DNA of 64,000 nucleotides from Bryoerythrophyllum caledonicum (lineage: Eukaryota; Streptophyta; Bryopsida; Pottiales; Pottiaceae). Below the pieces are notes generated by a model. It was not told the DNA's origin and made no database searches. It saw only the letters and a list, made by a program, of their open reading frames with translations. Each line of letters starts with the position of its first letter. Within the stretch, counting starts at the first letter, position 1. Below are positions 10,673-64,000 of this stretch, one piece after another. The position numbers and the translations under genes are program-made. Location of the stretch: positions 21,495,105 through 21,559,104 of the forward strand of contig OZ020523.1 in the NCBI GenBank assembly GCA_963971425.1. Reading direction: 5' to 3'.

Positions 10673-11099
10673 TTCACCCCTAAAGGACCAAGTGTCATAA
10701 AATGGCATTTTTGCAGGTTCGGTCCGGTTCCTACGGTGTCAATTTCTAACATTCCTCTTTAGAAAAATTTACTGGAGAAGGGCATTACTAAAACCTCAGT
10801 GGGAATACGATTTTTTTCCAATATCCATCATTTAATAAAAAAAGTTATAGGCTTTGGAATTTCAAACAAGGAAAGCAGGCACGTTGGGCACCTCCAAAAC
10901 CTTTTGTCAGGACACTCTATTGAATGTGAGGTTTTCAATACTGGCAAGTAATTTTATTTCCATTCATATTGTTAGTAAAAAATTCTTGTCTTTAGTGAAA
11001 AATATCATATTAACCCAAGTCAAATAATTTCACACATTGTCACACATTGTTGGGCAACGTACCAAAAAACTTCTTCCTTTCCACTTAGAGATCTTCATA

Positions 11100-11506
11100 G
11101 AAGAAGAAGAAGAAGAAGAAGAAGAAGAAGAAGAAGAAGAAGAAGAAGAAGAAGAAGAAGAAGAAGAAGAAGAAGAAGAAGAAGAAGAAGAAGAAGAAGA
11201 AGAAGAAGAAGAAGAAGAAGAAGAAGAAGAAGAAGAAGAAGAAGAAGAAGAAGAAGAAGAAGAAGAAGAAGAAGAAGAAGAAGAAGAAGAAGAAGAAGAA
11301 GAAGAAGAAGAAGAAGAAGAAGAAGAAGAAGAAGAAGAAGAAGAAGAAGAAGAAGAAGAAGAAGAAGAAGAAGAAGAAGAAGAAGAAGAAGAAGAAGAAG
11401 AAGAAGAAGAAGAAGAAGAAGAAGAAGAAGAAGAAGAAGAAGAAGAAGAAGAAGAAGAAGAAGAAGAAGAAGAAGAAGAAGAAGAAGAAGAAGAAGAAGA
11501 AGAAGA
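11100..11506 (+). repeat. (GAA)n microsatellite, ~135 units
   Basis: An uninterrupted GAA·TTC array of about 405 bases. It sits exactly where the 3' tail of the minus-strand LINE should be, between the target duplication and the 3' terminal fold. The other two copies of this LINE end carry only a few GAA units at the same place, so this looks like a tail that expanded after insertion, or a long tail made at insertion. The poly-Glu, poly-Phe and poly-Leu frames across it are not genes. Assembled length may be inexact. Confidence 0.9.
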
Positions 11507-11507
11507 C

Positions 11508-11640
11508 TAATCCTTTGCCGGTTCCCAAAGAGGCCGGCATGAATAAAGTGTCTGTTCGCACCTCCACTAAGACCGTGCCCACCAGGCAAAGGATTAGTAG
11601 TATGGGGCTACTTCCCCCTCTCGAGGGTAGACACTATGTA
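11508..11640 (-). ncRNA. Conserved folded 3' terminus of LINE RNA
   Basis: The copy contains a 13-base perfect inverted repeat, CTAATCCTTTGCC (from about 11507) with GGCAAAGGATTAG (near 11585-11597). It also has a GCCGG/CCGGC hairpin, a CCCT/AGGG hairpin and the closing stem AGTGTCT (11547-11553) / AGACACT (11629-11635). The same arrangement occurs at 714-872 and 59207-59340. In the LINE sense strand this lies between the ORF2 stop and the TTC tail, the usual place for a 3' structure recognised by the element's reverse transcriptase. That recognition role is inferred. Confidence 0.65.
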
Positions 11641-11780
11641 ATCGGTAACCATAAAGATGTAAACCAAGAGAAAGAAAAGCCACAATCCGAACAAGGGAGA
11701 GGGGAAGAAAGAAAAGAAAAGGAAAGAAAAGATAAAAGACAATTAGAGGGGGAAGGCCTGATGGGGGGAGTTAGGGCGTT

Positions 11781-12966
11781 TTATGTTGTGTTATGTGGAT
11801 CGGGGAGGGTTTGGTTGTTCTCTATTTTTTGTTTATGTAATAGTATGGACATAGCATGTTGGATTGCGATGGTGTTTATATTGTTGAAGGTATGTTTAAT
11901 TGTGTTCATGGGTATTTTAAAAGTTTCTTCAAGGGTGTTCATGGATGGGATATAGGTTGTGGTGCGGGCACCAGCCGTGATGACTATGAGGGGGTCAATT
12001 TTCCATCCGAGGTTTTCTATGTGGTCAATGAGGGGTTGATATTTGTTTATTTTATTTTCAATTGTTTCTGGTGACAATCTGTCATTACAGTACGTAAATT
12101 CAATAAATTGAATGGTATAGTTTGGGTCGATGTGGGTGGGAGCTGGATCATTGTATGGTAAACCTTTAACACAAAGTATGTCGGATTTAAATCTCGCATT
12201 ACAGTGGCATCTTTGGGTTGCACATGTACATGGGAGTAGCCAAGGTGGGACCGTGTTTTCTTGTGGGTTGTTATTGAAAGTGCGAGCATTCATGAGTATG
12301 AAACATCGGGATTTGTTATGTGAGGTAATTAGTTTTCGGATTTCCCATACTGCTTTGTTGTATCTTTTAACAATGAGGGAGTGTATGTGGTGGTTTTGGC
12401 GTTTTTTGAGATATTTTCCTAAAAAACGGACTGGGCCTTTGTCCGGGGTGTCATCTTTGGAGGGCCAATCCTCTCTTTGGAAGTAGTATGGAGTAGCATG
12501 TGCATGCTCATGTGGGTCTTTGGCATTTTTATGTGATTTTTCTCTTCCTTCTTTGGCTAGTTTATCGGCTTGTTCATTTCCTTCTATATTAGCGTGGGCT
12601 CTAACTTTATGGAATGTAGTAGGTTGTGTTCGATTTTGAAGCATTTGTACCATGGATATGAGTGTTATTTTGTCGGGGTGGCTATTGTGGAGAGAGGGTG
12701 AGTTATTTGTGTGTTTAGTAGATATAGGACATTGATGCAATCCGTAAAAATATGTGCGGGTTCGTTGGCATATTTTGTGTTGATGATTTGGAGTGTTTTG
12801 TGTATGGCCATCATCTCTGCTCTAAGGATGTTTTGGAGTCCGTGGAGTCTTTTGGCTAGTTTAATTTCTTTGTTGGGATTATATATGCCATATCCGGCTT
12901 TTTCTCTATGCCAGTGTCCAGGGCTACTTTCTACCGGTTCTTTGAAGGATCCATCCGTGTAGTAAC
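11781..12966 (-). pseudogene. LINE ORF2 C-terminus: RNase H plus Cys-rich domain
   Basis: Reading the minus strand from 12966, YYTDGSF, RAEMMAI and IFTDC give three of the acidic RNase H residues. After a frameshift near 12690-12740 the frame 12740-11781 continues with KVRAHANIEGNEQADKLAKEG, supplying the last Asp. About 230 further residues follow, with a cysteine cluster (CTCATQRCHCNARFKSDILC) and a conserved ending (DPLIVITAGARTTTYIPS... AIQHAMSILLHK). The same C-terminal region is encoded at 59413-59945. The reverse transcriptase and endonuclease are missing through 5' truncation. The copy is dead because of the truncation and the frameshift. Confidence 0.85.
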
Positions 12967-16353: not shown

Positions 16354-18819
16354 ATGGCGGGAGCCCTGATGGCTTCGAAATTGGCGAGGCGAGTGCTGGG
16401 AACAGAGACGCCTGTCATGGTTCAGGTACAAGTGACAATGAGATTGCTCAAATCGATCAATGAGTGTCATCTCTGCGTAGAGTAACGCCGACGTATAGTT
16501 CGGAGGACAGCTGCCCAATAGTCCAACACCAAAATGTTCCGTTGGTTCCGACATCAGACTTCTAACGAGGATGTTTTTCCGCTTATTATTGGCTGAGGGA
16601 GGAATCGATGCGATTCTCTCTTAGCATCTAGATGGACTCCCTAAGTGGGTAGACCTAATTTCCGCTCATTTTTCTTGGAAGATATACCCCACTGTGCAGC
16701 ATACGTCTTCTTCTAAGTTTATGCAACAAACATGGTACTCAATATCTGAATCAAGAAAAATTGGTGCTGAAAATGGTACTTAATATGTAGTACCAAGATA
16801 TGTTGTGTAGGAAATCTGACATGAAAATGTTGGCTATGTTTGCATGTGTAGATGCAGGAGTTGTTACGTGGTGCAACAGACGTTACATCATTGGCGCAGG
16901 TGCATCTCTGTTTCTATTCTGTTGTGCCATTCATGTGAGAATATGCCCTCTTTTCTTTTTAAGAAAGAATCTCCGTCCATACACGTTGGTAACCTGGCGG
17001 AGGTAAGGCAGGGTGTAGTACATTGGCAACCGCCGGAAGAAGCGTTGGCCAAGATTAAAGGGCTTGTGGATGAGCCCACAACAAGCCATTACGGTGCAGA
17101 CGATGGCCTGCCAGAGCTTCGGGAGGCTCTCTTAGAGAAGGTCTTCTCTCCAAACATGCTAAATGCCTCAAAATTTATGCCCTGTCTTGTCATTGAAACG
17201 TGGGTGTCTGGGATCAATCCATCTGAAAAAAGCATCCTGGCTGCAGCTTAGGAGGGAGAATAAGCTCTGCAATTCCTCGGTCATGGTCACTGCAGGAGCT
17301 AATCAGGTCAGTGTCAAATTATCCGAGGTTTGGTTTTTGTTGGAATTAGGAGAATATTCTTGGCGTTTAGGTTTTCAGGTTTTCATGTGAAGTTGGGTTT
17401 TGTTCACAGGCCTACGTGAACGTGGTGCTTACGCTGTGCGATCCAGGAGACAGAGTGGTTCTGTTTGTACCTTATTACTTCAATGCCTTCATGGCCTACC
17501 AAATGACAGGGGTAACTGACATCGTTTTAGGTCCCAGTGATAAGGCGTTGCATCCAGACGCAGGTTATCTCTTTGGATTTCTCTACGAAATTCTGTTTTT
17601 CCTTTTTGTTCAGTTCATGCTCCTCTGCTCTTGGTGATAATCACTGGTAAATGGGTGTACGCTCGAATGAAGTGCTAAAGCAAGTTTGGATGGTTGCTTT
17701 TGTAGACTGGTTGGAGAAGTTGCTCAAGAGAGAAGATCCAAAGCAAATACCCAAGGTGGTGTCTATTGTCAATCCTGGCAATCCTTCAGGGACATACGTA
17801 CCCGAGTCACTCTTAAAGGTACCTGCTATCTTACTGCACAAATGTAGGGATTTGGAGACTGCAAGTGGTTACAAAAGTTTTGTGCTGCTTTCTGTGTCCT
17901 GCGTAGACAGAATGTTGCTATGGATTTTGATTTGCCTCTGAATAATCCTGTCTCTGACGTCTTTGTGGCTCAACTCCAGAGGATATCGGAGATGTGCCGG
18001 CAAGCGGGGGTCTGGCTGATTGTCGATAACACATATGAGTATGTGCACTCTTCCAATTTTAATTTATATATGATTTTATAAAGTGTAGAGCAGCTTATTT
18101 TTGGCAGCTGATTCAATCCGACATGGACGTGCATTGGAGCAGGTACTTCATGTACGACGACTGTAAACATGTATGCGTGGAAGGCGATCACGTAATCAAC
18201 ATCTTCTCATTTTCAAAAGCGTATGGCATGATGGGATGGAGAGTGGGCTACGTAAGAATCCGCACTGCATTCAATGCGTTTTGCGATGCTGCTTCTACTC
18301 TGGGAGTGGATCGATTCTGATAAGTACTTGGGAACTGGTGGCAACTGTGTGCAGATCGCGTACCCAGTGGGGGTGACAGGCATGGGGGCGCAGCTGCTGA
18401 AAGTGCAGGACAACATCCCCATCTGCGCGTCCATCATCGGGCAGAAACTGGCGCTGGCGGCGCTGCAAGCCGGGCCGGAGTGGGTGGTGGAGAAGGTGAA
18501 GAGGCTGGGGGAGAACCGGCAGATGCTGCTGGACGCGCTGGCGCCGCTGGGCAATGGCGCTGTGAAGGGAGGCGAGGGCGCCATCTACCTGTGGGCGCAG
18601 CTGCCCAACCACGCAGCCACCAACGCTGCAGCGGACGATGTGGCCATTGTGCGGTGGCTGGTGAAGAAGCACGGCGTGAGCGTGATTCCGGGGAGCGCCA
18701 GCGGAGGGCCGGGGTTCATCCGGATCTCGTATGGCGGCCTCACCGCGGAGAGGTGCCGCCTGGCTGCCTCTCGCTTGAACAAGGGGCTGCAGGAGCTGGT
18801 GGACCATGGCATGGACTAG
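16354..18819 (+). CDS. VAS1/ISS1-type aromatic aminotransferase (PLP)
   Basis: A class I/II PLP-dependent aminotransferase. In Arabidopsis VAS1/ISS1 transfers the amino group of methionine to indole-3-pyruvate, lowering auxin and ethylene precursor pools; that role is inferred here from similarity. Nine exons: 16354-16425, 16852-16899, 17012-17140, 17247-17306, 17410-17563, 17706-17818, 17980-18038, 18143-18251, 18355-18819, joining to 402 residues. Visible blocks: SLAQGVVHWQPPEEAL, SHYGADDGLPELREAL, VMVTAGANQAYVN, VNPGNPSGTYVP, VDNTYEYFMY, and the Schiff-base lysine K237 in FSFSKAYGMMGWR. The C-terminal domain includes QDNIPICASIIGQ and FIRISYGGL. No transit peptide is evident, so it is probably cytosolic. 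The last exon is markedly GC-rich compared with the others. The donor after 17140 (GTCTTC) is weak but is required by the family alignment. Confidence 0.9.
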
Positions 18820-58740: not shown

Positions 58741-59206
58741 CTCAACTGCCACCACACGGGCCAGATAAGTACCCTAACCTTTTGTTTATCAATTCCTTAC
58801 TTGTTCATCTTAGGCCACATACAAGTTACTCATTTAACTCAATTACTGCTGAGCTGGTTCTACTACAAGTATCCAGGCAATACCCGGTATCTCACAAGGC
58901 TACATTGGAGATTACTCACCATTATGGCTTATAACAACAAGCGACAAGTAGGCCTCGACATGGAGGTGGATTCTCCAGAGAAGAGCCTCCTCAAAGCCCA
59001 AAGCTCAAAGACTACTAGGAGAGGTGGAGAAATAACAAGCTCCAACAAAAAAACCAAAGCATCCTCCACGGAGAAAGGTAAGTCAATTCAAACACCGGAA
59101 CTTAGCAAGTTTAAGTTTTGGATGGGTTTTCAGGCCATGGAGGCCTTAGCAGTGGAGGAAGGGATTGAGGAGCTCTACAGCGGCGAAACGGTGATGGAAG
59201 AAGAAG

Positions 59207-59340
59207 AAGAACGCCAGTCTCCGGAGGAGCTGGCGTGAATAAAGTGTCTGTTCGTTCCACTACTAAGACCATGCCCACCGGGCAAGGAATTAGTAAGTTG
59301 GAACTACTTCCCCCTTTCGGGGGTAGACACTATGTAACAA
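59207..59340 (-). ncRNA. Conserved folded 3' terminus of LINE RNA (third copy)
   Basis: The hairpin CGCCAG-T-CTCC-GGA-GGAG-CTGGCG lies at about 59211-59234. A second hairpin, CCCCC-TTTC-GGGGG, lies at 59310-59323. The closing stem AGTGTCT (59243-59249) pairs with AGACACT (59325-59331). The same three helices occur at 714-872 and 11508-11640 with different base sequences in the hairpins. Confidence 0.65.
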
Positions 59341-59412
59341 GTGACCGAACACCACAAAGCTAACCATCAAAAGAGTGGGTAATTTTATGTCTTGAGATGA
59401 GGGGGGGTAATC

Positions 59413-59958
59413 TTATGGAGGGTCTTGTGTGATGGGAAGGGCTTGGTTGTTTTCAATTTTTCGTTTATGAAGGAGGATGGACATAGCATGTTGGATGGCA
59501 ATGATGTTGATGTTTTTGAATGTATTTGTAATTGTATCATTGGGGATTGAGAAGGTGTCTTCTAGGATTTTTATGGATGGAATGAAGGTGGTGGCACGAG
59601 CACCGGCTGTGATTACAATAAGGGGGTCCACTTTCCATCCGAGGGTAGTGATGTCTTCGATAAGTGGTTGGTATTTATTGATTTTGCTTTCGATTGTTTC
59701 TGGGGAGAATCTGTCATTACAATAAGAAAATTCGATGAATTGAATGGTGTAGTTTTGATTAATGAGGTCTGGTGGGGGGTTATTGTATGGTAGGCCTCTA
59801 ACGCATAATATGTCTGGTTTGAATCGAGCATTGCAATGGCATCGTTGAGTATCGCATGTACATGGAAGTAGCCACAGTGGAACCGTATTTTCTTGTGGGT
59901 TGTTATTGAAGGTGCCGACATTCATGAGGATAAAACATCTTGAATTTTTGTGAGAGGT
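59413..59958 (-). pseudogene. LINE ORF2 C-terminal fragment
   Basis: The minus-strand frame 59925-59413 encodes NVGTFNNNPQENTVPLWLLP, the cysteine cluster CTCDTQRCHCNARFKPDILC, and the terminal block DPLIVITAGARATTFIPS... AIQHAMSILLHKRKIENNQA. It aligns end to end with residues encoded at 11781-12300. It is truncated just upstream by the insertion boundary. Confidence 0.88.
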
Positions 59959-61339
59959 GAACGGTGATGGACATGATGACTAGAGACATGAGGAAGGAAG
60001 AAGCGGAAGAGGTATGTAATGCAAGACTTGCTTTCCCTAGAATCCCACAAATCCTTTACCCTATGTCTAGAATGGGAGTTGTGGGACAACACTTCAACAT
60101 AACTCAAATTCCCTTTGACATCAAAACCAACGAAAACTCCGGTTTGTCTCTCACCTACCATGTTGCTATTTACTTTGAGCTCCCTAAAACCCCTCTCATG
60201 CATGATGATGTCAAAAAGATGGTTCTTGCTAGACTCAAGAAGATGGACATTGCACTTGGGGACAAAATAGTGGATCCACTTGCAATTCAATGCTTAAGTA
60301 TTAAGAAAGGTGGAATGAAAGGGGTATGGGCGGGTAACATTAAGCTTCACTTATTGAAACCCGAATGTGATGGCCTAATGCTCCTTAAAGGAATTAGACC
60401 ATTTATCTTTGATATTGACAATGAGCTTGTTGTTGGGAAAGTGTGCAAGTCTTATTTGCGGATTGCAAAGAATACTGACCTCTCCGTGAAGGTCAAAAGT
60501 GAACACTTGACGGATTTTTCAGCTCAAGCTCTCTTCAAGGAAGTCCTTGAGAGTAGTTTTTACCGTGGACAAGAATTTGAGGTCTCCGGTGTGCAAAAGG
60601 GCTATGGGGATGCACACGCATTCATCATTGCCACAACACCTCTCCAAACCAAGAAGATGCTTGTACACAAGATCACTGTGGGAGGGGAGGTGCTACAAGC
60701 AAGACAAACATTTGACAACAAGGGACCCAATGGCTCGGGAGAGTCCAAGGAAAGGAAAGAAGCCCTAACCTTAACTCTTTCTCCTCTTCCCATCCATCTT
60801 GATGTCATGCATACCACTCATGAGATTTATAGAATTATGGGTGGAGTCAATGTGAGAAATATTTGGTTCCATAAAGAAGATGGAAACTCTCACAATGGCA
60901 ATGCCAACGTTTTATGTGCTAACCCTATTGTGTATAGGACTTTTGTACACAAGACATATGTGATGAAGGGCAACTATGTGGACTTTGCACCACATCGAAG
61001 AAGCTTAGAAGGCACTCACCGTCCTACCGAGGAGCAAGTTAAGAGCTTTGGGTTTGAAGACATCAACACCGCAATAGTGAACACAATATCAACCTTCAAG
61101 ATGCAAGAGAAGAACGAAACCCTCACCAAAAAAGATATGGTGGAACTCTTGAAGGACAACAACAACAAGATTAGGAAGGAGAACCGTGAATACACCGACA
61201 AAATGCACAAGGAGCTCAAGGAAGAAATGGAAAACCTCCAAGATGCTTTGTTTGGAGTACTCAAGAGTATGGCCGCCATCACGGGGAAGAAGAACTTGTC
61301 ACTTGAAGAAGACCCGTCAAACATGTGAAGCTCCATGAC

Positions 61340-62040
61340 CACACAATTGCTCACATCTACTCTGTAGTATACTATACATCTACTATACGGTTTAGCATAG
61401 ACAATACTACATATAGTAGAGTACAAGTACACAAATACATGATAGATCGTACGTATATATGTACGAGGTACAAAAAATGTATTCAACTTTATACTCAATA
61501 CAATACAAAAAACAAAACTTATACCTCAAACTATACGCAAGAAAAATACTATACTAGATACAAAGACAATACCCAAACCCTCACATGGAAACTACATACA
61601 AAAACAAAAACACATACAAACACTAAAACAAAAAAACACATAAATATGAAAACATACATACACAAACACACAAACACATACAAAAACAAACACACAAAAA
61701 CATACACAAACAAACACACAAACACATACATAAACACAAATCCACACACAAACACAAACGCTTACATAAACCCAAATACATACACATACCCATACAAACA
61801 ACTATACATAAACACAAAAACACACAAAAAAAACACGACCACAAGAATATAGTAAAACCTACATGACCACAAGAACACATAATGCTACAAGGATACACAC
61901 ACATACATACACACACACAAATAAAATAAAACAACTAAACACATACACACACAAACACATACACAAAAATACACACATAAGCACATATACGGAAAAAAAC
62001 CAAAATACACAAAAGAAATACAAACCAATAGACCCTCAAT
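61340..62040 (+). repeat. A/C-rich low-complexity spacer between LINE ORFs
   Basis: From about 61560 the + strand is dominated by ACAAACACATAC-type words and almost lacks G. Open frames here (61325-61852, and the start of 61863-63218) read as Thr/His/Lys/Asn/Tyr repeats and are probably not conserved protein. It lies between the ORF1 stop and the recognisable part of ORF2. Confidence 0.65.
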
Positions 62041-64000
62041 GGACTAACCCAAAATCAAATATATTCACCAAACTACACAACCCTCCCAAAAAACACATCA
62101 ACAACCCACACTACTATAAAACACCCCTAGAAGAAAATCAAAACAAAACCAAATACGAAAAGATAAATGAAACCACACAATGCCGGGATTTACCACTAAC
62201 ATACAGACAAAAAATAAGTATCCTAAAAAATAACACAAAATCTAAACACTATAAACTACTACTAACCCTAGGTGGTGACATAGAAACCAACCCGGGACCC
62301 ATGCCTAATATACTAAAAAGACACCCTACACCACATAAGAAAAATGCCAAACTACACTTTATACCAAATACTATCAAACTACAACCGGAATATAGACACA
62401 TCGCCCAAACATTTGCACCCCTGTTAAAAACCACACACACACTACACCTAACACACAACATCACACACACAAACATTGCCCAATACATACAACAACAAAA
62501 TATACATCCATCACCATATATTTTATTCGCCCTGGTGATTACTATCCATCCAAACATAGACGAATGCAATCGCCTTTTAAACCCACAAAACCCGACTATA
62601 ACATCATGGACCAATACACTCCTACAAACCCTATCAAGCTTACAAAACCCACCCGAAAGACACATTCATACCCCACATCCCTACACAAAATTCCTTGAAG
62701 AAAACCAAAGTATTTTAAACCACGGAAACTCAATACACAAAGAATTATATGACTTTTTAGATAACCAAACCACCCCTCCCTCATACACTACAACACAACA
62801 AAAATTCCCATACCTCCCTAATAATCTAGTTCACGCATCGCTAAAGTGTTTTGGCCCCATACCAGAATACATCCACCCACCACCTCTACCCCTCTACCTC
62901 CCTCCACAAAACCAAAATACTAATTCATACAATGAAAACACGAACATAATTACATGGAACGCCGCATCATTAAACACTGCCCTCCCTAGCTTCCAAACCT
63001 TGATTACACACACAAATACACCACCAGCCTTTATAGCCATAAAAGAAACAAAACTATCTGCCACAAAATCTACAAAATACATACAAAACATTTTTCAAGA
63101 CTACAAACTTATTTTTAACAACACACATGCATTAACTAGATGCATCCAACAACGAAGACCATACACTCCAAGGCGAGGTGGACTACTCACATTAATATAC
63201 AAAAAACATGCCTTCTAGGGCAACATCCAAAAAATCTCTACCCCAATGCACATATCCCCATACCTCTAAATAATTAGAATCGCTAATCAACTGCTACAAT
63301 CATGGTTAATCTTCCACATGTATATGCCATCGCACCCTGAAGATACTAGATTCATCATTGACATACAAAACACTATCACATCTCAAATCAACAATAACCC
63401 TAACCACACTTACATGTTATGTGGAGACTTTAACAGAGACATAGCACTAATTGGTCGACAAAACAGAAACCATGTCACCTCCCCTCAAAATGCCGATTAC
63501 CAATGGCGTCAATTCACAGAAAACTTAAACTTCATTTTCATAAACACTGACACACAATACTCTAGACAAGGTGGTTATAGCTACAGTGACTGGAGCCTAA
63601 TAGATGGCTTCTACATAAATACAAACAATAATGCACAATATACTTCTACAACAAATAAAGACGTCATTCTCAACTCAGACCACTTGCCTATACAACTACA
63701 CATTCCAAATAACATACTAATCAGTCACACCCCCATAATCACAAATAATGATACCATACGCATACTCAACCCCATCCCAAAAGAGAATTTAGAAAAATTC
63801 GATACCCAATTCTTTGAAGGAAACTCCATGCAAATTGACTCCCTCATAAACACCCTCGAAAATAATAACCACCTAACACAAATACAATGGCAAGACACAT
63901 GCCACACTCTAGACATACTTATTAATAAAATCTCTGACACGCTTGAACAAACTTGCAAAGCCCAACCTACACCTCAAATGACAAACCGAACATCTCAACA
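61863..64000 (+). pseudogene. LINE ORF2: 2A motif, APE endonuclease (partial)
   Basis: The frame opens at ATG 61863, though the true start is unclear because the first ~60 codons are low-complexity. LLLTLGGDIETNPGP ends at 62300 and fits the 2A ribosome-skipping motif; the break would fall before the Pro at 62298-62300. About 210 residues of basic, unassigned sequence follow. The APE-type endonuclease comes next, with TWNAASLN (Asn codon 62958), IKETKLS (Glu codon 63045), CGDFNRD (63420-63437) and NSDHLP (His codon 63681). In-frame stops TAG (63216-63218) and TAA (63267-63269) lie inside the endonuclease; the frame is otherwise open to 64000. Reverse transcriptase is expected beyond the window. 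Confidence 0.85.

Follow-up and report, generated by a model that had tools for sequence, protein, structure and literature searches.

Introduction

A 2A, or StopGo, sequence was reportedly described in L1Tc by Heras et al. in 2006 and in APE-type LINEs by Odon et al. in 2013. Trypanosomes and animals have 2A sequences in APE-type LINEs, as the original prediction on this DNA had pointed out, and the sea urchin is among these animals (PMC4981915, PMC11512398). The moss LINE considered here is, like these elements, APE-type and carries D(V/I)ExNPGP in frame upstream of the endonuclease; it differs from them in its land-plant-type host, in a hypervariable low-complexity leader with relic 2As, in a PCIF1-like domain and in the presence of about 1,700 motifs in one genome.

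Among viruses, nearly 10,000 StopGo sites were surveyed in 2026, of which only six lay in plant viruses and were judged to be probable host misclassifications; the survey describes leucine-rich upstream motifs with (A/S/C)G as their last residues ahead of the Asp, and StopGo functions in plants in artificial constructs (PMC12846837). Viral StopGo with the L-rich upstream motifs 2 and 6 shares with the moss 2A the core octapeptide, Gly at p11, G/S/C at p10, an L/I-rich stretch from p5 to p9 and Asp at p12; at p15 it has Ser (PMC12846837), whereas the moss sequence has Thr (or Lys or Gln), resides in a LINE and is followed by Met after the final Pro in 28/28 distinct loci. In the sea urchin NLR proteins a 2A also stands ahead of a larger protein but is itself an N-terminal signal sequence (PMC4981915), whereas the 2A of the moss LINE comes after a long leader that is not conserved. 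Regarding plants, the original prediction could name no LINE with a natural 2A, and there was none among the literature matches listed; Rao et al. (2025), cited in PMC12846837 as a search of viral and cellular proteomes, constitute the main risk to priority. Within the searchable literature, the land-plant-type host, the copy number and the hypervariable translated leader appear to be new.

Comparison of many copies makes it very probable that StopGo acts in the second frame of this abundant APE-type non-LTR retrotransposon, where it would release a leader and fix the start of ORF2.

The 2A motif and the element in the window

The window is the whole stretch of 64,000 nucleotides that was analysed, and its features are given in Table 1 together with those of related loci. 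At 62226-62300 the ORF2 frame runs ...NNTKSKHYKLLLTLGGDIETNPGP, with an ATG immediately 3' and the frame continuing as MPNILKRHP. By translation, KLLLTLGG-DIETNPGP-MPN (62253-62309) is in the same frame as the downstream APE endonuclease, as had been predicted. The octapeptide conforms to the StopGo core (D/G/C/N)(V/I)ExNPGP, and a suitable upstream context, [LI]L[LI][LI][LI][GSC]G, precedes the Asp in most of the 28 distinct loci, the comparison having been made by eye with the L-rich motifs ending in (A/S/C)G of PMC12846837. The sole other NPGP in a six-frame scan of the window lies at 18716 on the minus strand and has no D-x-E context. The prediction had placed the 2A at the N-terminus of ORF2: it is indeed in frame and upstream of the ORF2 domains, but 155 open in-frame codons precede the Asp, with an ATG at 61863, 138 codons before it. 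With stop depletion upstream and ORF2 downstream, the 2A has coding sequence on either side of it within one translated frame.

Table 1. Features of the 2A-bearing LINE in the window and in related loci (window coordinates unless a locus is named)
Feature	Position	Strand	Basis or remarks
ORF1, first part	58924..59198	+	homologues of both parts adjoin upstream of ORF2
Target-site duplication, 12 bp, AACGGTGATGGA	59187..59198; second copy 59960-59971	+	read by eye
Nested 5'-truncated related LINE inside ORF1	59199..59959	-	ORF2 3' end, 3' UTR, short (TTC)n tail
ORF1, second part	59972..61328	+	Pfam/PDB: no match of note
Leader, A/C-rich, low-complexity, unconserved, translated	61812..62252	+	ORF2 frame open; stop depletion over 29 loci
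2A/StopGo segment KLLLTLGG-DIETNPGP	62253..62300	+	translation; kept across loci; 1717 genome matches vs 2 in control
Core octapeptide DIETNPGP	62277-62300	+	D codon at 62277; NPGP at 62289-62300
ATG/Met just 3' of NPGP, possible second start	62301..62303	+	Met in 28/28 distinct loci
ORF2: N-terminal region, then APE endonuclease (from ~62949)	62301..63998	+	extends past window end
Related element, 5'-truncated	11507..12960 (upper limit approximate)	-	RNase H, C-terminal Cys/His domain, 3' UTR
Strongly conserved C-terminal domain	11784-12329; 59434-59961; L034:1834-2373	-	CxC..CHC and K(P/S)D..IEF motifs
PCIF1-like domain	L043:7501-9999, ~residues 1591-1729 from the 2A Asp	+	after RT
Relic 2As ~178 codons upstream	L012, L023, L036 (in frame); L021, L024 (other frames)		flanking similarity
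Single relic 2As	L012, L025, L027, L038 (in frame)		flanking similarity

The ORF2 of the window is broken by an in-frame TAG (63216-63218) and an in-frame TAA (63267-63269), with further stops beyond the window; this copy is a pseudogene and dead. Its APE endonuclease matches PF14529 with 25 bits (E 1.8e-5), slightly below the curated cut-off of 27.4. The two parts of ORF1 amount together to 544 codons including the stop; both lie side by side 5' of ORF2 in L055, L047, L049, L044 and L045, and ORF1 homologues occur upstream of ORF2 in many fetched elements. Comparison of ORF1 with Pfam and the PDB gave no convincing match as to its function. The LINE nested within ORF1 has 78% protein identity over 176 aa with the 3' end at 11.8-12.7 kb. 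Both of these window copies end 3' in (TTC)n tails, that of the element at 11507..12960 being a perfect (AGA)136 array (11099-11506), i.e., 136 units. Of note, the tails of this LINE family may seed long microsatellites.

Copy number and family membership

The assembly scanned comprises 437,360,962 bases (437 Mb) in 894 contigs. A codon pattern for D[V/I/M]ExNPGP had 880 forward and 837 reverse matches, 1717 altogether, and the reversed pattern used as control had 2 and 0, by which a chance motif is excluded genome-wide. When the motif was extended by N-ATG-CC, 839 + 777 matches were obtained, and 1343 + 1275 when up to two mismatches were allowed in the extended motif; the control gave 0 each time. 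Met-Pro, scored as ATG-CC, directly follows the motif in 94% of sites (1616/1717).

That other members of the family would carry NPGP in frame was a check proposed with the original prediction, and it was borne out in two samples. All 30 loci cut out via the motif (L009-L038), which are the first 30 in the list and all lie on contig C1, share its reading frame with the start of a homologous ORF2 and have M-P-N after NPGP; these 30 translated loci belong to the same LINE superfamily. The second sample was drawn independently of the motif, by searching with the 220 residues that follow the 2A (4238 first-look candidates, 150 of them scored): among the eight copies that could be checked, in the listed stretch of C1, the exact motif immediately precedes the matched region in seven, and the eighth, L057, has NPRP, one base off, the 2A being recognisable in 8/8. 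A common open frame of 2809 aa is found in 16 of the 150 scored copies, a sign of a recent burst; one of the 16, L058, carries MKTKTKKYLKHIHKTIKLKQHIKPSYYKTLLLQSG-DIETNPGP-MPN with an ATG 35 codons before the Asp.

Regarding the host, the assembly has 75 GRAS-domain matches, counted at exon level, and 14 control genomes have none. GRAS families mark land plants and close algae, which makes this a genome of land-plant type.

Constraint begins at the 2A

Selection was compared along the frame by pN/pS over all ungapped pairs of the 28 distinct loci among 31 (the 30 loci and the window), values which are uncorrected, come from related sequences and serve for contrast only. Two stretches of the leader gave 1.19 and 1.02, positions -12 to -9 gave 0.53, the eight residues before the Asp 0.44 and the 29 codons after MPN 0.36; the core gave 0.03, a value that is ascertained because the core pattern picked the loci, which does not apply to the others. 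Constraint sets in at the 2A, and the leader residues drift freely. Two to four codons are used for every one of the residues D, I, E, N, P, G and P, which themselves stay unchanged. The positions that vary are p15 (T/K/Q), p10 (G/S/C) and the L/I run before it, and viral StopGo varies at these same residues (PMC12846837). It had been proposed to look for conservation over the 25 residues before NPGP: about ten residues before the Asp are conserved, in the L-rich style of StopGo, but not 25. Moreover, since the two main groups differ considerably (62-70% identity in ORF2, 28-41% in ORF1) and the 2A is kept in both, it has been retained over considerable divergence.

A translated leader of arbitrary content

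In codons 16-150 upstream of the Asp, 34 stops were counted among 3886 codons of the 2A frame, as against 210 and 214 in the other frames and 5.2% stops in shuffled leaders; the count covers 29 of 31 loci, L034 and L037 having been left out as near-duplicates, and excludes the last 15 codons before the Asp. Because stops are depleted about sixfold, and in the 2A frame only, the leader must be taken as translated. The depletion weakens with distance: the 2A frame has 25 stops versus 66 and 83 at 150-200 codons upstream, 72 versus 179 and 153 at 200-300 codons, and 117 versus 196 and 165 at 300-400 codons. Measured by distance to the nearest stop, no frame is longer than that of the 2A in any of the 31 loci, a comparison that is biased because the other frames hit stops within the conserved 2A.

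What is translated is arbitrary in content, with poly-Q, poly-N/H and T/H/N/K-rich leaders. The original prediction had suggested that the leader might double as a targeting signal; this finds no support, and a conserved signal of this kind was rejected, the leader sequences being unconserved between loci (poly-Q, poly-N or T/H-rich, with pN/pS near 1). Long in-frame AAC/AAT or CAA runs, encoding poly-Asn or poly-Gln, were observed in the leaders of L006/L010 and L041, and the (CAA)n runs are reminiscent of plant viral leader enhancers. In L040, L042 and L043, the three among 18 ten-kilobase loci with a fully open ORF2 (all 1833 codons fetched), the nearest in-frame ATG lies 162-171 codons upstream.

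Apparent decay of displaced 2As

Flanking similarity revealed nine 2A segments that are older and displaced, in leaders belonging to 8/31 loci. Five of them go back to a single relic inherited within one subfamily, and independent relics number about five. The core is lost in 9/9 (e.g., DMETNPRP, DINTRP, DIGTIPGP), and in the seven in-frame cases the frame remains open through to the working 2A. In the 18 ten-kilobase loci the exact motif occurs just once per locus. The relics look like a natural comparison in which a 2A that no longer fronts ORF2 decays. The upstream core is not always lost, however, because at one site on contig C1 (G000:C1:6319950-6320482) two exact motifs stand on the same strand 510 bp (170 codons) apart; this could possibly be a working double 2A.

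ORF2 domains and relatives of the element

In L043 a single frame, open for 1833 codons counted from the 2A, holds both APE (PF03372, 27.7 bits, cut-off 24.5) and RT (PF00078, 94.4 bits, cut-off 29.6), with the 2A upstream. The same ORF2 has a match to PCIF1_WW (PF12237) of 46.8 bits (cut-off 31.1, E 3.2e-12). This domain is a module of PCIF1, a cap-adenosine methyltransferase with the catalytic motif NPPF; since this motif seems to be replaced by HPHN, activity of the LINE domain is doubtful, and its alignment with solved PCIF1 (6irx) is weak (E 0.1). We know of no LINE with a PCIF1-like domain, and none was among the matches listed in the literature search.

RNase H (25.2 bits in the 5'-truncated window copy, slightly below the cut-off of 25.8) and the conserved Cys/His domain were observed solely in separate 3' fragments, because the fetched stretches stop before the end of ORF2; from these fragments, the two domains most likely complete the same ORF2. 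The Cys/His domain had no convincing match in Pfam or the PDB, its AlphaFold model is poor (pLDDT 45.8), and it is a candidate restriction-like endonuclease. Against solved structures, the RT profile scored 108-113 bits for R2/R2Tg, 75-77 for LINE-1 ORF2 and 55-59 for 8gh6/8ibw (Bombyx R2).

These features recall the Dualen/RandI LINEs, which share with the moss element APE, its probable RNase H, a very long ORF2 and a repeat tail other than poly(A). Dualen/RandI elements combine APE and a restriction-like endonuclease on one protein, and their RT stands between the RLE-type and APE-type clades; they possess that endonuclease, whereas the C-terminal domain of the moss LINE is only a candidate for one. 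To our knowledge, no 2A is known in Dualen/RandI. These LINEs of green algae are listed in PMC3747384.

Proposed mechanism and alternatives

In the mechanism that we propose, the element would encode ORF1 (~540 aa) and, downstream, a long leader-2A-ORF2 frame. Ribosomes would enter within the hypervariable, low-complexity, A/C-rich leader and translate through it in frame; at the 2A the leader peptide would be let go after NPG and synthesis would resume with Pro-Met-Pro-Asn, ORF2 thereby beginning at an identical residue whatever leader precedes. What the sequences show is the motif with its copy number, its in-frame conservation, a translated leader free of amino-acid constraint, and constraint setting in at the 2A; that ribosomes skip, how efficiently, from which start and to what end (which would be to free ORF2 from a drifting leader) is inferred. 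The Met after NPGP may in addition act as a second start yielding a nearly identical protein.

It is conceivable that StopGo works and that the leader is itself functional, in RNA binding, solubility or ribosome recruitment, giving two useful proteins. That many loci keep the frame open for 150-200 codons would agree with this, but between subfamilies the leaders have no residue-level conservation (pN/pS ~1) and resemble one another in composition only (N, K, T, H, Q), and an open frame is in any case required to reach the 2A; we consider such a second product rather unlikely.

Quite improbable, in our estimate, is a start of ORF2 at the conserved ATG right after NPGP, the sequence upstream being untranslated or acting as leader RNA only. 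The Met is present in all 28 distinct loci, and in 14/31 loci, some of them decayed copies, the stretch from the last stop down to the 2A lacks an in-frame ATG, as such a start would allow. In codons 16-150 upstream, however, the roughly sixfold stop depletion falls precisely in the 2A frame and disfavours this Met as the sole start, and upstream of the ATG it is the peptide, not the codons, that is conserved.

That the segment is an ordinary hydrophobic ORF2 motif (signal, membrane or interaction) merely resembling a 2A is very unlikely, for although it has a short KLLLLL run, and 2A-like sequences of sea urchin NLRs double as signal sequences (PMC4981915), the StopGo-critical residues are constant and the StopGo-free ones vary, and the run lies within an open frame, as much as hundreds of codons from where it begins, rather than at a defined N-terminus.

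Perspectives

Release of the leader by StopGo, the reading that we prefer, invites a further suggestion, which we make tentatively from the same comparisons and in which we place less than even confidence: StopGo might serve as a maker of N-termini that is independent of the start site. The leader would drift in the manner of a microsatellite, ribosome entry would change and be partly non-AUG, and the 5' sequence would be replaced repeatedly, leaving relic 2As behind, with the same ORF2 made each time. If true, land plants would thereby gain their first example of StopGo in natural use.

Moreover, about 1,700 natural motifs in several subfamilies, together with displaced, decayed 2As for internal comparison, provide a large StopGo alignment shaped by plant ribosomes, which would be useful for the design of 2A sequences in plants. 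For the family itself, StopGo at this position would explain in concrete terms why a wildly variable region before the enzyme can be tolerated by a bicistronic LINE.
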